A stretch of 41,695 nt of DNA from Sulfurovum sp. (GTDB lineage Bacteria; Campylobacterota; Campylobacteria; Campylobacterales; Sulfurovaceae), in assembly GCA_027063305.1 (NCBI GenBank), contig JAMORY010000024.1, positions 1 to 41,695 of the forward strand, written 5' to 3'. The notes beneath the pieces were generated by a model. The model made no database searches and was not told where the DNA came from. It saw only the letters and a program-made list of their open reading frames with translations. Of the stretch, positions 5,674 through 18,441 are shown in pieces. Made by a program: the position numbers and the translations under genes. Each line of letters opens with the position of its first letter. The first letter of the stretch is position 1.

Positions 5674-6015
5674 ATGAAAGAATTTAAAGTTATCTGGACT
5701 AAAAATGCTGAACTTGATTTAGAATTAATTATTGAATATATTAAAATCAACAATATAAGTGTAGCAAAAAAAATATTTTTTGAGATAAAACAAGAGGCTA
5801 ATAAACTACGTACTCTACCTCAAAGAAAAAGAATAGTACCAGAGTTTCATCAAATTGGCATCACAAAATATAGAGAAATAATCTATAAAAGATGGAGAAT
5901 AGTTTATAAAATTGATGATGAAAAAGTTTATGTTCTCATTGCAGTAGATTCAAGTAGAAATTTAGAAGATATTTTATTTCAAAGATTAATAAAAAGTGAT
6001 AACAAAACAGAGTAA
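5674..6015 (+). CDS. ParE/RelE-superfamily toxin
   Basis: A 113-aa protein with the RelE/ParE pattern: KEFKVIWTKNAELDLELIIEYI, then LRTLPQRKRIVPEF, GITKYREIIYKRWRIVYKID and VYVLIAVDSSRNLEDIL. The KYREIIYKRWRIVYKI core and the run to a final DSSR resemble ParE (gyrase-targeting) more than mRNA-cleaving RelE, but the two cannot be separated safely by eye. It follows its antitoxin by 5 bp. The last codons (SDNKTE and stop) lie inside the attC site of the cassette, so the toxin C-terminus is partly encoded by recombination-site DNA. Confidence 0.87.
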   Translation: MKEFKVIWTKNAELDLELIIEYIKINNISVAKKIFFEIKQEANKLRTLPQRKRIVPEFHQIGITKYREIIYKRWRIVYKIDDEKVYVLIAVDSSRNLEDILFQRLIKSDNKTE

Positions 6016-9277: not shown

Positions 9278-10096
9278 TTAAAAGTGATGACTCCTGCAAG
9301 GGAACCGCTCTTGGTTCTTTGCTACTTTTGCAAAGATCGTAAGCGGTGTACCGGTCTCTTCTGCGATCGCTAAAACGGCATCTTTCTGCGACTCTTTAAA
9401 ACCGATAAGCATCTCATACTCCTCTCCGCTAAAGCCCTGCTTATCGTTGATCGTTTTTAATATTGAAACTCCATATTCATTCATATCAAGAAGCTTATTC
9501 GTATCACAGTAGAGTCCGTCGGAGATATCCATACCTACCTTGAGGAACGGTCGGGCTTTGTAGACAAAATCTGCTCTGAGTGTCGGTTCGTAAAACCTTG
9601 AATCAGGTGCAATCTTCTCTCCTCTGAAGAGCGCTTCCAGATCACGCTTGCTCTCTCCCAGTGTTCCAGTGTATGCCAGAATGTCTCCCTCTTCCAACCC
9701 TTTACGAAGCAGCGGGTTGTCACTCTCGGAGACGATGGTGATGCTCAGGTGAAGCTTGTCGCTTCCGATGGTATCGCCCCCGATGATCTCACATCCGTAC
9801 TCTGCTGCGGTTTTGTGCATACTCCCCATCAGTTCATCTATCTCCGCCCTACCTATATCTTGCGGTATGGAGACCGTTACAAGCGCATACCTGGGGTGTG
9901 CGTTCATCGCGATGGCATCGGAGAGATTGATCAGCATCGCCTTACGCCCGATCTGCGCCATACTCATCCACTCGCGTTTGAAGTGCGTATCTTCAAAGAA
10001 CGCATCCATACTGTAAAGGGTCTTCCCCACCACCGCGGCATCATCCCCCACATACTTCGAATTTAACTTACTGATAAGATAGGCTTCTTTGTCCAT
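9278..10096 (-). CDS. thiL: Thiamine-monophosphate kinase
   Basis: A 272-aa ThiL of the PurM/AIR-synthase ATPase fold, phosphorylating thiamine monophosphate to the pyrophosphate cofactor. Recognisable ThiL stretches are VGDDAAVV near the N-terminus (Mg/ATP Asp pair), MSMAQIGRKAMLINLSDAIA, the IGGDT metal-binding motif, the TGTLGESKRDLE loop, and VGMDISDGLYCDTNKL. The start is set at ATG 10096 (MDKEAYLISKL); a 22-residue upstream extension has no homology and runs into a repeat. Slightly shorter than enterobacterial ThiL (about 325 aa), mainly at the C-terminus. Convergent to the FAD gene. Confidence 0.88.
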   Translation of the reverse strand: MDKEAYLISKLNSKYVGDDAAVVGKTLYSMDAFFEDTHFKREWMSMAQIGRKAMLINLSDAIAMNAHPRYALVTVSIPQDIGRAEIDELMGSMHKTAAEYGCEIIGGDTIGSDKLHLSITIVSESDNPLLRKGLEEGDILAYTGTLGESKRDLEALFRGEKIAPDSRFYEPTLRADFVYKARPFLKVGMDISDGLYCDTNKLLDMNEYGVSILKTINDKQGFSGEEYEMLIGFKESQKDAVLAIAEETGTPLTIFAKVAKNQERFPCRSHHF

Positions 10097-10118
10097 GATT
10101 GCTCTGCTTTTACTTTTT

Positions 10119-10242
10119 GTAGGGTGGGCAATTGCCCACCTGCACATCCTTATTTTGCGCAATAAGGTTTATTATTTTTATCTATTTTTAATAAGGCAGG
10201 CAATTGTACCCCAAGGGCACTTTCGTTGTGCGCCTACCCTAC
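10119..10242. repeat. REP-like inverted-repeat element upstream of thiL
   Basis: The left end GTAGGGTGGGC (10119-10129) is inverted at GCGCCTACCCTAC (10230-10242). The left end includes a perfect 18-bp palindrome around GGGCAATTGCCC (10123-10140), and a second AGGCAATTGTACCCC copy lies near 10196-10211. No gene is inside. The layout resembles REP/BIME-type dispersed elements, but copy number cannot be judged from one window. Confidence 0.5.
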
Positions 10243-10388: not shown

Positions 10389-11441
10389 ATGCAACATACA
10401 CTTCAGGTACGCGCATTCTTTTTCAATGCAAAAACCGACTACCTTCCTTACTATAAAAACTTCAAAATGAAACTTGACGCTGAAGCGAAAGCGAGCGATA
10501 TCCTCAAAGAGATCAAAACAGCCAACGAGAACTTCGCCTACCCTGAAGAGAAGTTGGCATTCCGCATCAACAACCTTGTCGTCACCGGCGAGGAGTCGAT
10601 CGGGAAGATCGTTGAAAAGTGCGGTAACACCCTACAGATCGACCCTGTGACAAGCTACCGCTCCGACCACTGCCTCATTATCAACGACAGCGACTTCAAC
10701 GCACACTTCGAGAAAATTCTAGCACCCTATGCCACAGAAGAGGACAAAGCCTACTACGAGTCGCTCTACCCGCTTCACTATGCCTCAGAGTCTAGCATCT
10801 TCAACCGTGACTACTGCGGTGATGCCATCTTGCTTACGGCGTTCCGTATGATCGAGAACGATACCGAGCATAAAGATGCCATCTTGCAGGCGATCGATAA
10901 CGAAGATGCACTCTGGTCATGTGAGTATGAGGACAATATGTTCGAGCCTGCACCGTACGATGTCGATATCGAATCACTTAAAAAACTCGTACGCGCACAG
11001 CCGACAAGCGGACTGTGTGAGAAGATCATGCAAAAGTGTATGCAAAAACGTAACAAACCCCAAGAGGTGGATAGCCTTGAGGGTGCCAATGTCGCTTACT
11101 TCCTTGGGGATGCGAAAGATGCCCCCTCCAAACAAGAGCTCTTTGCACAGATCGAAGCGGCAGGCGGTAAGGTCGTACGCTTCGACAGAGAGTCCAAACG
11201 CGCAGGTGCGACACTGCTTGATGCAAACAACACCATCGCCTACAAAAAAGCGGCGACCACACTGCTCGATGCGCTTGATAGCGGTGCGGACGTACTTGTT
11301 TGCGCCGATGAGGCCGCTTTGGCACTCTTTACGGAGCATAAAGGGATGTTGCAAAAAGAGATCGGTAGAGAGATACCGCTTGCAGTCATTAGCCTTGAGC
11401 GTTTTAACACATTGGCGCAAACCAAAGCGGAAGTCGCCTGA
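10389..11441 (+). CDS. Cysteine-depleted SdhB/SdhE-like fusion protein (DUF5644-like)
   Basis: A 350-aa soluble protein. Residues 4-115 follow the ferredoxin domain of the SdhB encoded 1.9 kb downstream (FFNAKTDYLPYYK against FRFNAETDYLPYYK; GNTLQIDP against GNELLIEP), but the whole 2Fe-2S cysteine loop is missing. Residues 120-205 follow the SdhB helical domain (DYCGDAILLTAFR against DYFGPAAFVAAYR; WSCEYEDNMFEPAP against WDCVKCFECAEACP). Residues 232-345 follow the first CCG domain of SdhE (AYFLGDAK against ALFTGCTAK; KRAGATL against CCGASHL; VLVCADE against ITICNTC). Only isolated cysteines persist (for example C178, C305). It appears to be a fused paralogue that cannot bind the usual clusters. 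Own TATAAT promoter; AAGGA 7 nt before ATG. I recall a Campylobacterota DUF5644 family with this kind of N-terminus; naming is tentative. Possible roles: assembly factor, regulatory or structural subunit. Confidence 0.75.
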   Translation: MQHTLQVRAFFFNAKTDYLPYYKNFKMKLDAEAKASDILKEIKTANENFAYPEEKLAFRINNLVVTGEESIGKIVEKCGNTLQIDPVTSYRSDHCLIINDSDFNAHFEKILAPYATEEDKAYYESLYPLHYASESSIFNRDYCGDAILLTAFRMIENDTEHKDAILQAIDNEDALWSCEYEDNMFEPAPYDVDIESLKKLVRAQPTSGLCEKIMQKCMQKRNKPQEVDSLEGANVAYFLGDAKDAPSKQELFAQIEAAGGKVVRFDRESKRAGATLLDANNTIAYKKAATTLLDALDSGADVLVCADEAALALFTEHKGMLQKEIGREIPLAVISLERFNTLAQTKAEVA

Positions 11442-11480
11442 TCCAAAACGATTTAGACAAACTTATACATATCATCACTT

Positions 11481-11515
11481 CCCGTTTTCTTTCTTGTAAC
11501 AAGAAGGAAAATGGG
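11481..11515 (+). terminator. Hairpin after the SdhB/SdhE-like gene
   Basis: TTTTCTTTCTTGT (11485-11497) pairs with ACAAGAAGGAAAA (11499-11511), one G.T-type mismatch, extended by CCC/GGG. It is 40 bp after the stop. No T-run follows; instead the GGTAACAATCCTCCCC motif related to the 6479-6677 element begins. Confidence 0.45.
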
Positions 11516-11581
11516 TAACAATCCTCCCCAAAAACCCCCACATTCTCCCCGCTATTAATCCGTTTGATACCAACCAGACGC

Positions 11582-11587
11582 TATAAT
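11582..11587 (+). promoter_or_regulatory. -10 box of the sdhABE operon
   Basis: TATAAT at 11582-11587, 36 bp before the sdhA ATG. No convincing -35 box at the right distance. A separate promoter after a hairpin suggests the SdhB/SdhE-like gene and sdhABE can be transcribed independently. Confidence 0.5.
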
Positions 11588-11622
11588 GGACGCAAAATTG
11601 ACATGTAAAGGACGCAAGCGTT

Positions 11623-13341
11623 ATGGACGTTAAAATCTACGAATACGATGCTGTGATCGTCGGTGCGGGTCTTGCTGGTTTGGCTGCTGCCAAAGAGCTG
11701 ACCGAAGCGGGCAAGAAAACAGCGGTCATCACCAAACTACATCCACTCAGATCCCACTCAGGTGCGGCACAGGGAGGGATCAACGCAGCTCTCGGTAAAG
11801 AGGACTCGGTTGAACTCCACATGTTCGATACGGTCAAAGGTTCGGACTACCTTGCAGATCAGGATGCGGTAGAGCTTATGTGTAGTAAAGCGCCTGAGAC
11901 GATCAGGTGGGCGGAGCATATGGGTGCGGTCTTCTCAAGAGATGAAGAGGGAAACATCGCTATCAGACCGTTTGGCGGGCAGAGTAAGCCAAGAGCGTGT
12001 TACGCAAAGGACAGAACCGGACTGGCGGTACTTCAAGCGATCTACGAGCAGGCATTCCGCGCAGGTATCGAAGTCTTTGACGAGTGGTACTGTGCTGATC
12101 TTCTCTATGAGGATGGAAAAGTCTACGGTGTCTCAGCATACGACATCCGCAACTCACAACCTGCGATCTTCAATGCCAAAGTGGTCATGTTCGCAACCGG
12201 TGGTCACGCACGTGCCTACCGCTTTAACTCCAATGCACATGCCAACACCGGAGATGCACTCTCCATCGTAGCGCGTCACGGACTTCCGTTGGAAGATATG
12301 GAGTTCGTTCAGTTCCACCCAAGCGGACTTGGAGGATCGGGTGTACTCATCTCAGAAGCGGCACGTGGTGAGGGGGGTCGCCTTTACAACGCTCTTGGTG
12401 AGCGTTTCATGGAAAAGTATGCGCCTAATGCACTGGAACTTGCATCACGCGATGTCGTATCACGCGCTATTATGGAAGAGGTACGCCAAGGACGCGGTGT
12501 TGGAAAAGACGGACAATCGGTTAACATCGACCTGACACACCTTGATCCGGAGATTATCCTTACACGTCTGCCTGAGCTTCGTGAACTTGCCATTGCCTTC
12601 CAGGGGCAGGATATGCTCAAAGAGCCTATCCATATCTCCGCAACGGCACACTACTCCATGGGTGGGATCCCGACCAACATCGACTGTCAGGTACAGAAGA
12701 ACGCCAAAGGTGACCTTGTAGACGGTTTCTATGCGGCGGGTGAGTGTTCATGTGTCTCCGTACACGGTGCCAACCGTCTTGGAGCGAACTCCGTTCTTGA
12801 AGCGCTTCTCTTCGGACGTCATGCGGGAGAGAACATGGTAAAAGCACTCAATGAGGGTGTAGCATTCAAAAAAGCGACCAAAGCCGATGCACAGCGTATG
12901 CTCGATGAGCTTACACGCATCAAGACATCTAACGGAACAGAGACCGTACCGGGGTTACGTGAAGAGCTTCAAAACGGTATGACCGCCAATGCCGGTGTCT
13001 TTAGAACCAAAGAGTCTTTGGAGAAACAGCTCAAGCTCATTGATGAACTGCTTGAGAGATTCAAGAATATCCGTATCGACGACAAATCCAACACATTCAA
13101 CACAGACCTGCAAGAGGCGTTGGAGCTTGGACACATGTTGGAGTTCAGCAAGTTCATCGTTGTGGGTGCGCTCGTACGCGAAGAGAGCCGTGGCGGACAC
13201 TACAGAGAGGATTTCCCGGAGCGTAACGACGAGAAGTTCCTCAAGCACACCTACGCCTATATGGATGAGAACTACAACATCACGACCGAATGGGGTGAAG
13301 TGACACTTGGCAAGTTCGAACCAAAAGAAAGATCATACTAA
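11623..13341 (+). CDS. sdhA: Succinate dehydrogenase / fumarate reductase flavoprotein subunit
   Basis: A 572-aa flavoprotein oxidising succinate in the TCA cycle, or reducing fumarate. It has the FAD Rossmann motif [16 protein letters not shown], the covalent-FAD region [16 protein letters not shown] (His of SHSGAA), the active-site stretch [16 protein letters not shown] with the substrate-binding His, RGEGGRLYN, and the C-terminal FAD contact [19 protein letters not shown]. There is no twin-arginine signal, so this is a cytoplasm-facing SdhA rather than the periplasmic MfrA type known from Wolinella and Campylobacter. AAGGA precedes ATG 11623 by 11 nt. First gene of sdhA-sdhB-sdhE; sdhB follows after 9 bp. 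Reaction direction cannot be read from sequence. Confidence 0.93.
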
Positions 13342-13350
13342 GGAGGTCGT

Positions 13351-14341
13351 GATGAGTGATACAGTAACCGTAACATTAAAAACATTTAGATTTAACGCTG
13401 AGACCGACTACCTGCCGTACTACAAACACTACGAGATGGAAGTGGGTAAAGATGAGCTGATGCTCGACCTGCTCAACCGTATCAAGTGGGAGCATGACGG
13501 TTCGTTCTCCTACCGCCGTTCATGCCGTCACGGTATTTGTGGGGCGTGCGGTATCAAGGTTAACGGAAAAGCGACGCTTGCATGTAAGCAGAACGCCCTT
13601 GAGCTTGTAAAACTTTTTGGAAACGAACTGCTTATCGAGCCGCAAAGTACCAAACGTGCGGTTAAAGATATGATCATTGACAAAAAAGACTTCTGGGACA
13701 AACATGCAGCGGTCAAACCGTATGTCGTAGCCGATATCGATCCGCATCCTGAACATGAGACCAAGCAAAGCATCGAAGAGTTCAACAAATTCCTCGATGC
13801 CGACCTCTGTATTCAGTGTGGTAGCTGTCACTACGCATGTCCGGTAGTAGAAGTGAACGAAGACTACTTCGGACCTGCGGCGTTCGTTGCCGCTTACCGC
13901 TTTACGGTCGATACACGTGATGAGGCGGGCGAAGAGCGTCTGGAGCTAACAGCCCAAATGGGTCAGGGTGTATGGGACTGTGTGAAGTGTTTCGAGTGTG
14001 CCGAAGCGTGCCCCAAAGAGATCAACCCTATCGAGAAGATCACCAAGCTTCACAACCTCCAGTTCGAGAAGAAGGTGGCAGTAAGCAATGTCGCTACACG
14101 TCACGCAGAAGGGTTCGTACGAAGTATCAAGAGACACGGATTCCTTGACGAAGCGGATATCGTCATCTACTCCGAAGGCTACCTTGGTATGTACAAACAC
14201 CTCAAAACAGCGGTCAAAATGCTCAAAGCCGGTAAGATCCACTGGCAAGACTCTCTACCATTCGTAGATAACGTACCAAAATCCAAAAACCTCAGTGAGA
14301 TCCAGAAACTCATTGAAATTTCACAAACGAACAAACTGTAA
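13351..14341 (+). CDS. sdhB: Succinate dehydrogenase iron-sulfur subunit
   Basis: A 330-aa electron-transfer subunit. Cys58, 63, 66 and 78 (SCRHGICGACG ... ATLAC) bind the 2Fe-2S cluster. CIQCGSCHYACP (Cys153, 156, 159, 163) and CVKCFECAEACP (Cys210, 213, 216, 220) bind the two further clusters. The second motif has a full CxxCxxCxxxC, so the usual 3Fe-4S centre is probably a second 4Fe-4S, as described for the SdhE-type (non-classical) complexes. ATG 13351 is preceded by AAGGAGG overlapping the sdhA stop; a longer upstream reading inside sdhA is not credible. The roughly 90-residue C-terminal extension after the last cluster is longer than in classical SdhB. It pairs with SdhE for quinone reduction. 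Confidence 0.93.
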
Positions 14342-14350
14342 GGAGCCATG

Positions 14351-15247
14351 ATGAGTAACCTAAAATATGCACTATTTACCGGATGTACTGCAAAGCAGTC
14401 AACGCCAGAGCTTCTCTCATCTACCCTTGCAGTAGCGGAGAAACTGGGTATTGAGATCACCATCCTAGAAGAGGCAAGCTGTTGTGGTGCAAGCCACCTT
14501 CAAGACTTTGACGAGTTCCTTGCACACGTACTTAACGCACGTAACATCTGTTATGCAGAGAAGCTTGGCATGACGATGATCACCATCTGTAACACCTGCC
14601 AGCTCAACTCTGCCATGACCAAACATGCACTCGACACCGACCCTGAGCTTAAAGCACGTGTCAATGAGAAACTCGCAGAGGTCGGACTTGAGTACAAAGG
14701 GACAAGCGAGATCAAACACTTCCTCTACGCACTCATTGAAGATTACGGATTGGAGAAGATCAAAGATCAGGTCAAAGTACCGCTTAGCCAGTTCAACATC
14801 GCACCGTTCTACGGCTGTCACAATATCAGACCATCCGAGCTTCACCACAATGTCAACGGTGGAGAGAACCCGTACAACCCAACCTCACTCGACCAGCTCA
14901 TCGAAGCACTTGAGGGACATCCGGTAGATTACGACCACAAGAACAAGTGTTGTGGTTTCCACGTAGAGCTTCAAGCCAACCATACGTCAGAAGTACTCGC
15001 AGGGAACGCGATGGTCGATGCTATCGACAACAATGCCGACCTGATGGTTACACCGTGTCCACTTTGTCACCTTAAAATGGATACCTACCAAGATGACATC
15101 GGTCATGTCATCGGTCGTGACGTAGAACTTCCTGTACTGCATATGCCGCAAATGGTAGCTTTGGCGCTTGGATGTACCGAAAAAGAGATCGGTCTGAACT
15201 TCCACGTGCAAAAAGCAACACAGATCTACAGCGAAGCACAAAACTAA
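14351..15247 (+). CDS. sdhE: SdhE/HdrB-type CCG-domain membrane-anchor subunit
   Basis: A 298-aa protein with two cysteine-rich CCG domains as in heterodisulfide-reductase subunit HdrB: FTGC (Cys12), ASCCGAS (Cys44/45) and CNTC (Cys80, 83), then FYGCHN, KCCGFH and CPLCH. In SdhABE complexes this subunit replaces the haem-containing transmembrane SdhC/D anchors and binds the membrane peripherally. No transmembrane helix is visible. ATG 14351 lies 5 nt after AAGGAG; ATG 14348 directly before it is the alternative but is very close to the Shine-Dalgarno. It is the end of the sdh operon: a 14-bp GC-rich palindrome (15247-15260) starts at the last base of the stop codon. Confidence 0.92.
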   Translation: MSNLKYALFTGCTAKQSTPELLSSTLAVAEKLGIEITILEEASCCGASHLQDFDEFLAHVLNARNICYAEKLGMTMITICNTCQLNSAMTKHALDTDPELKARVNEKLAEVGLEYKGTSEIKHFLYALIEDYGLEKIKDQVKVPLSQFNIAPFYGCHNIRPSELHHNVNGGENPYNPTSLDQLIEALEGHPVDYDHKNKCCGFHVELQANHTSEVLAGNAMVDAIDNNADLMVTPCPLCHLKMDTYQDDIGHVIGRDVELPVLHMPQMVALALGCTEKEIGLNFHVQKATQIYSEAQN

Positions 15248-17715: not shown

Positions 17716-18342
17716 TTATCGATCGTAACGAAGATACCCGCTCTCTCTTGTTCGATTCCCTCTGCGAGTACGATCGTCATAGTTTCGGTCGTTCTCCTCT
17801 TCATATCTTCTTCGTGTACGGGTACGCTCACTGATTCTGTCTCTGCCATCCCTGTATGTTCTCTCTTTCGTTCTTGTGCGCGCATGGGTTCGATCTCTGT
17901 CGGCACTGTAAGGTCTTCTCTCTTTATAGGTACCGGTATGGCGGATCGGCCGTTCTCGGGTTCGGGCAGTGTCGTGTGAACGTGTACGCACTCTGTTTCT
18001 ATGCTCATACTCACTTCGATTACGGTAATATCCATACTCTCCCGACCTTGCACGGTAGCGTCGACCATTATGGTAACGGTAGCCATCTTTATAGTAGTAC
18101 CCACCATGATATCGATGTCTGTTATGGTAGTAGTATCCATTATGGTAGCGACCGCCGTAATAGTAATGGCGTCCGTCATAGTAGTATGGTCTATCGTAGT
18201 AGTAAGGATGATCATAGACCAATGCCGTACCTACCGCTCCTACTCCCATGCCCGTCACAAATGCCTGCTCTTGCGGGGTACACCCCGTAAAAAACACCAA
18301 AGAGAGTGCCACTGCACCCAATTTCAGTGTGGTATATCTCAT
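17716..18342 (-). CDS. Tyr/His/Arg-rich low-complexity lipoprotein
   Basis: A 208-aa protein of no recognised family. ATG 18342 has GGAGG 8 nt upstream and opens a lipoprotein signal, MRYTTLKLGAVALSLVFFTGC. A short FVTGMGVGAVGTALVY segment follows. Then comes a Tyr/His/Gly repeat-like region (about 48-100, units like HYYYGGRYHNGYYYHN). The last half is dominated by Arg, Glu and Asp (RTRSHDTARTRERP, ERTRTRRRYEEENDRNY). The body is intrinsically disordered and highly charged, likely facing the periplasm or surface. Metal binding by His or a cell-wall-associated role is speculation. The other frames on both strands are also open because of the repeated codons; these are shadows. Confidence 0.75.
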   Translation of the reverse strand: MRYTTLKLGAVALSLVFFTGCTPQEQAFVTGMGVGAVGTALVYDHPYYYDRPYYYDGRHYYYGGRYHNGYYYHNRHRYHGGYYYKDGYRYHNGRRYRARSGEYGYYRNRSEYEHRNRVRTRSHDTARTRERPIRHTGTYKERRPYSADRDRTHARTRTKERTYRDGRDRISERTRTRRRYEEENDRNYDDRTRRGNRTRESGYLRYDR

Positions 18343-18441
18343 TCTCTTATCCTCCATAATGATATGTGTGTAGTATAAAGTAAAATCGTGTGAAGATCGT
18401 GTCTAAGCCAAAAATATTGTATGGTATACTATATATTACGC

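Follow-up and report, generated by a model that had tools for sequence, protein, structure and literature searches.

A cysteine-stripped paralogue of SdhB fused to part of SdhE, encoded beside sdhABE in Sulfurovum

Described relatives and the locus of gene X

The SdhB and SdhE subunits of the SdhABE complex, a type of respiratory succinate dehydrogenase, and of 8-methylmenaquinol:fumarate reductase (MFR) have folds homologous to those of the protein described here, called X, in the same order, and X is a paralogue of both. Unlike these subunits, X is devoid of the 2Fe-2S loop, of nearly all ligand cysteines, and of the first CCG domain. In methanogens, TfrB is likewise a fusion of an SdhB-type part and an HdrB-type part. 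However, it is described as an iron-sulfur protein, which X, judged by its sequence, is not, and relatives of X gave only weak profile matches to TfrB. The protein HP0468 of Helicobacter pylori, the domain family DUF5644 (PF18712), and the structure 3KWL belong to the same family as X; species, length, and match indicate that 3KWL is very probably HP0468. The arrangement of SdhB plus HdrB without clusters is common to X and HP0468, but HP0468 (about 500 aa) keeps both CCG-type domains, whereas X has only the second. Furthermore, HP0468 is not encoded beside sdhABE, which the H. pylori genome lacks, whereas X is. HP0468 has been labelled 'DUF5644 domain-containing' (PMC9570263), gastric-cancer-associated variants of it have been reported (PMC6090961), and its induction by H2 is mentioned, by way of a citation, in the latter paper. 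A published role of HP0468 or DUF5644 was not found in the searchable literature, with most subscription papers lying outside the search. E. coli SdhE(YgfY) and human SDHAF2 occupy the flavoprotein surface that is later taken by FrdB/SdhB, and flavinylation is reduced when FrdB/SdhB is lost (PMC5773532; PMC10784507).

The window, which is the whole stretch of DNA that was analysed, is a contig (C24) of 41,695 nucleotides from a 2.03 Mb genome of Sulfurovum sp. Gene X (10389–11441, + strand) encodes 350 amino acids and starts with an ATG codon that has AAGGATG just before it. A thiL-like gene with an AIRS domain (9278–10162, − strand), a conserved neighbour of the X locus, is positioned upstream in divergent orientation. 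Gene X is followed on its own strand by sdhA of the cytosolic type with a FAD-linking His motif (11623–13341), sdhB encoding the true iron-sulfur subunit with 12 cysteines (13352–14341), and sdhE encoding the true subunit with two CCG domains (14348–15247). The sequence-only reading had placed X directly upstream of sdhABE, and X is indeed a real open reading frame on the same strand, 181 nt before sdhA. No terminator-like site was found on the + strand of this gap (11442–11622); therefore, X may be co-transcribed with sdhABE. Promoter-like matches around X were no more frequent than expected by chance. The possibility that X is a chance open reading frame or an artefact is ruled out by its order-wide homologues and by dN/dS values of 0.04–0.20 among relatives of X (pairs at 70–95% identity), which indicate purifying selection. 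No relatives of X were found on the plasmids searched.

Two other open reading frames of the window may be mentioned. One (17716–18357, − strand) encodes 213 residues that begin like a lipoprotein and include a repeat region rich in Tyr, His, and Gly. The other (5674–6015, + strand; 113 residues) resembles, as judged by eye, the RelE/ParE-type toxin component of a toxin-antitoxin system.

Folds of SdhB and SdhE without iron-sulfur ligands

X finds the true SdhB of its own genome with an E value of 2.7e-9. Residues 4–116 and 130–205 are colinear with the true-SdhB profile (E 1.2e-16), as had been proposed for residues 4–205 from the sequence alone. Profile-profile comparison confirms the relationship of both parts of X: the N-terminal part matches SdhB (99.9%, E 1.7e-31) and the C-terminal part SdhE/HdrB (99.9%, E 7.9e-34). 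The matches to the PDB are 3KWL (5e-34) and E. coli SdhB (5e-10) for the N-terminal profile, and 3KWL (1.7e-20) and HdrB (about 1e-20) for the C-terminal one.

The AlphaFold2 model of X alone (pLDDT 93.4, pTM 0.87) contains an SdhB-type and an HdrB-type fold. The model was compared with known structures by PDB fold comparison, which provides Z scores, and by Foldseek. It matches FrdB/SdhB chains with Z scores of 13–14 over about 200 residues at about 3 Å, and includes both the beta-grasp and the helical dicluster fold of SdhB/FrdB. Ubiquitin-like folds with Z scores of about 8 were read as reflecting only the common beta-grasp arrangement. Residues 1–116 (10389–10736) form the beta-grasp (Fer2-type) domain without the 2Fe-2S loop. 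Residues 117–205 (10737–11003), which correspond to the region matched by DUF5644 in relatives, are the helical counterpart of the SdhB dicluster domain, with the ligands gone. Residues 229–350 (11073–11438) are the equivalent of the second CCG domain of SdhE/HdrB, also without ligands. The sequence-only reading had assigned residues 232–345 to the first CCG domain. This assignment is wrong, because residues 250–343 correspond to positions 179–272 of the 295 positions of the true-SdhE profile (E 1.6e-9) and residues 229–345 superpose on residues 142–269 of HdrB (Z 13.3, 2.2 Å). X thus has only one of the two CCG domains of SdhE/HdrB, and the first is missing.

The loss of cysteines was scored in an alignment of 109 distinct X-family proteins, with the twelve cysteine positions of SdhB from the window as the reference. 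All 2Fe-2S cysteine positions and the first dicluster motif are occupied by gaps or other residues. A single cysteine close to the last SdhB cluster motif is present at one column in 76 of the 109 proteins and at the next ligand column in seven, the exact column being alignment-dependent. Cys178 (10920–10922) is the sole cysteine of X close to an SdhB ligand column. Apart from such single cysteines, the cysteine ligands of the three SdhB/FrdB clusters are absent from X and from the 109 family members. The ten motif cysteines of SdhE are also replaced in X, which therefore lacks the CCG cysteine motifs of SdhE/HdrB, and relatives have only an occasional single cysteine there. Both the deletion of the 2Fe-2S loop and the replacement of almost all ligand cysteines, as initially noted, are thus borne out. 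It is very improbable that X is redox-active after all, using another cofactor or a metal site formed by its remaining cysteines. Although Cys178 is invariant in 18 Sulfurovum-type members, it is missing from the other branches, and the number of cysteines in the family varies from one to ten with no common pattern. Of 99 conserved SdhB positions, X proteins retain 25 at a frequency of at least 60%, and 13 of these 25 at a frequency of at least 94%. The retained residues include F14, D19, N71, P97, R102, and F114, numbered as in SdhB of the window. The profiles, predicted structure, tree, and cysteine counts firmly identify X as a redox-dead paralogue of SdhB fused to part of SdhE.

The X family and its distribution in Campylobacterales

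In the phylogenetic tree, the X-family proteins, including an HP0468-type member (L175), form one group with a support of 100/100, separate from SdhB and FrdB, and X shares ancestry with the HP0468-type members of DUF5644. The name 'DUF5644-type' suggested in the sequence-only reading was a good guess: relatives of X from several families score over the PF18712 cut-off (>25 bits), though X itself falls below it and is not listed at E 1 or better. The Pfam family HdrB-like_C is over the cut-off in several members, but not in X. The order-wide distribution of relatives rules out that X is unique to the genome of the window; 89 of 100 searched relatives have X or an SdhB homologue, and X proper was detected in about 42 with E values no higher than 1e-49. 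Adjacent, split B and E genes occur in the Sulfurospirillum locus L157 and in families f20, f5, and parts of f10 and f13, whereas fusions are found in f1, f6, f8, f14, f16, f18, and the other parts of f10 and f13. Most of the split E partners retain both CCG-type domains without the cysteines. These results show that, in an ancestor of Campylobacterales, copies of SdhB and SdhE were deprived of their clusters and gave rise to a non-redox family of split or fused proteins, in which X retains just the second CCG domain. The family already has a name and extends across the order, including Campylobacter, Helicobacter, and their relatives. However, no description of it as a redox-dead SdhB-SdhE paralogue with linkage to sdhABE was found in the searchable literature; the present identification makes DUF5644, including HP0468, recognisable as such a paralogue.

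One genome (G152; 1.57 Mb, FrdA of 715 aa) encodes an X-family member of about 500 residues beside pepF-, kefB-, and modA-like genes, which, from gene order, we take to be HP0468 of H. pylori. Cj1459/Cj1460 are, also from gene order, presumably orthologues of the X family, and no paper on them was found in the searchable literature. A conserved protein of about 160 residues is encoded next to the X gene in Helicobacter-like genomes (L042:4920–5390, L044:4698–5171, L175:6886–7374) and is, by gene order, assumed to be HP0469. The Sulfurovum metagenome-assembled genome Faavne_M6_B9 has X split into two open reading frames of 164 and 150 residues (L045:3659–4707, which is the same place as L151:6001–7049) upstream of an intact sdhABE, due to either gene decay or an assembly error. 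In another locus (L176:2523–4151), an X-family open reading frame of 542 residues carries an N-terminal DUF309 domain (PF03745, E 2.9e-12) and is followed by a 95-residue open reading frame and sdhA. In Sulfurospirillum (L157:453–3870), genes resembling by eye those for SUF-type iron-sulfur assembly are located beside truD-thiL and the split X pair.

The distribution of X was counted by hand in a sample of 300 genomes with completeness of 95 or more, with five unclear genomes omitted and HP0468-type matches counted as X where SdhABE is absent. SdhABE is encoded in 151 of these genomes and lacking in 144; X is present in about 34 of the former (~23%) and about 112 of the latter (~78%), a pattern that clusters by family, so that the events are not independent. 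Therefore, X is not an obligate part of SdhABE, and this role is ruled out. X is absent from close relatives of the window genome (G015, G020, G325), the SdhA proteins of which are 87–94% identical to that of the window. In the 34 genomes with both, X is positioned within 5 kb of sdhA on one contig in 25, which belong to six families, and on a different contig from SdhABE in the remaining nine. The synteny with sdhABE seen in the window is thus strong where both occur, but X is commonest where SdhABE is absent and is missing from most genomes that have it, which leaves a role specific to SdhABE only partly supported. It is improbable that X belongs to the finished SdhABE complex as an accessory or regulatory subunit without redox function, for example one that acts at the B-E interface as a cap, brake, or stabiliser. 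The linkage to sdhABE and the presence of B and E folds in a single chain fit such a subunit, but most SdhABE genomes lack X and most X genomes lack SdhABE. In addition, X evolves faster than the products of its neighbouring genes, with a median pairwise identity across 26 loci of 0.49, compared to 0.88 for SdhA, 0.80 for SdhB, 0.88 for SdhE, and 0.68 for ThiL.

A sequence search yielded 78 named loci. In 41 of these, X is followed within 600 nt by an sdhA gene of the same orientation, and the order in some of the others is sdhA-sdhB-sdhE-X. X overlaps sdhA by 4 nt in L039 and precedes it by 40 nt in L033. The two genes are divergent in G237 and G208, X is ahead of sdhA in G150 and G312, and they are 2–3 kb apart in G134 and G164. 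It is possible, though at less than even odds, that X has an unrelated cytosolic function, as a scaffold or regulator elsewhere in metabolism, and is located near sdhABE because of its origin there by duplication and a conserved thiL-truD locus. The thiL gene adjoins X where SdhABE is lacking and adjoins sdhABE where X is lacking, X is most frequent in genomes devoid of SdhABE, and the neighbours of X are unrelated genes in Arcobacter-, Campylobacter-, and Helicobacter-like genomes. However, X remains next to sdhABE despite changes of order (upstream, divergent, or downstream), locus L092 retains sdhABE-X with no thiL nearby, and X has retained SdhB positions. A co-transfer of X and sdhABE into Sulfurimonas, suggested by the X tree, was dropped, as the SdhA proteins of those loci are 86% identical to those of f16, the genomes of which are apparently the own group of these loci.

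A possible placeholder for complex II flavoproteins

Our tentative reading is that X may serve complex II flavoproteins as a non-redox placeholder or assembly factor, standing in for SdhB; it is almost equally probable that X goes back to an ancestral thiL locus and has an unrelated function. X would bind the flavoprotein (SdhA here, FrdA or MfrA elsewhere) through its retained SdhB surface before the true iron-sulfur subunit arrives, would keep it competent for assembly, perhaps aiding FAD attachment, and would then be replaced by SdhB/SdhE. In this order, X could thus take the part of SdhE(YgfY)/SDHAF2, acting at the same flavoprotein surface. The principle that X might share with SdhE(YgfY)/SDHAF2 and SDHAF4 is to occupy, while the complex is being assembled, the flavoprotein face that binds SdhB; those factors are small and have folds unrelated to X, whereas X is an SdhB homologue with putative flavoprotein binding. 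It is rather unlikely that the whole order uses an Fe-S-dead SdhB-SdhE copy in this way, in place of the canonical flavinylation factor.

The role as placeholder is suggested by the SdhB and HdrB folds without clusters, and by the conserved SdhB positions that were kept though all redox function is gone. The proximity of X to sdhA across six families, in several arrangements and also without thiL, points in the same direction. Sdh5/SdhAF2 (PF03937) was over the cut-off in none of 30 genomes of the order (2 of 14 named genomes in a control search), X itself has no PF03937 match, and the known factors use the SdhB/FrdB surface. Purifying selection combined with fast divergence is as seen for accessory factors, and the H2 induction of HP0468, so far as it is cited in PMC6090961, is also consistent with this role. 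On the other side, the surface that faces SdhA may include the very 2Fe-2S loop that X has lost. The scarcity of X among SdhABE genomes, its absence from relatives with closely similar SdhA, and a draft genome with X in which no complex II flavoprotein was seen (G156) also count against a placeholder. A complex II flavoprotein is encoded in nearly all X genomes, but this is hardly informative because nearly all genomes of the order have one. The FAD-linking His motif is kept in SdhA with X (87/88) and without X (7/8); therefore, covalent FAD does not strictly depend on X, and the motif was dropped as a correlate of X. How the complex II flavoproteins of Campylobacterota mature without detectable Sdh5/SdhAF2 is now a directly testable question, and if X is a placeholder, this would assign a function to H. 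pylori HP0468 and its relatives in Campylobacter.

The genome of the window encodes an additional SdhA paralogue (G000:C3:13177–14415) of a type with about 540–560 residues and 38–44% identity to SdhA. This paralogue is widespread in the order beside FrdA and NadB, and in f20 a distance of about 4 kb separates it from the split pair of X genes.
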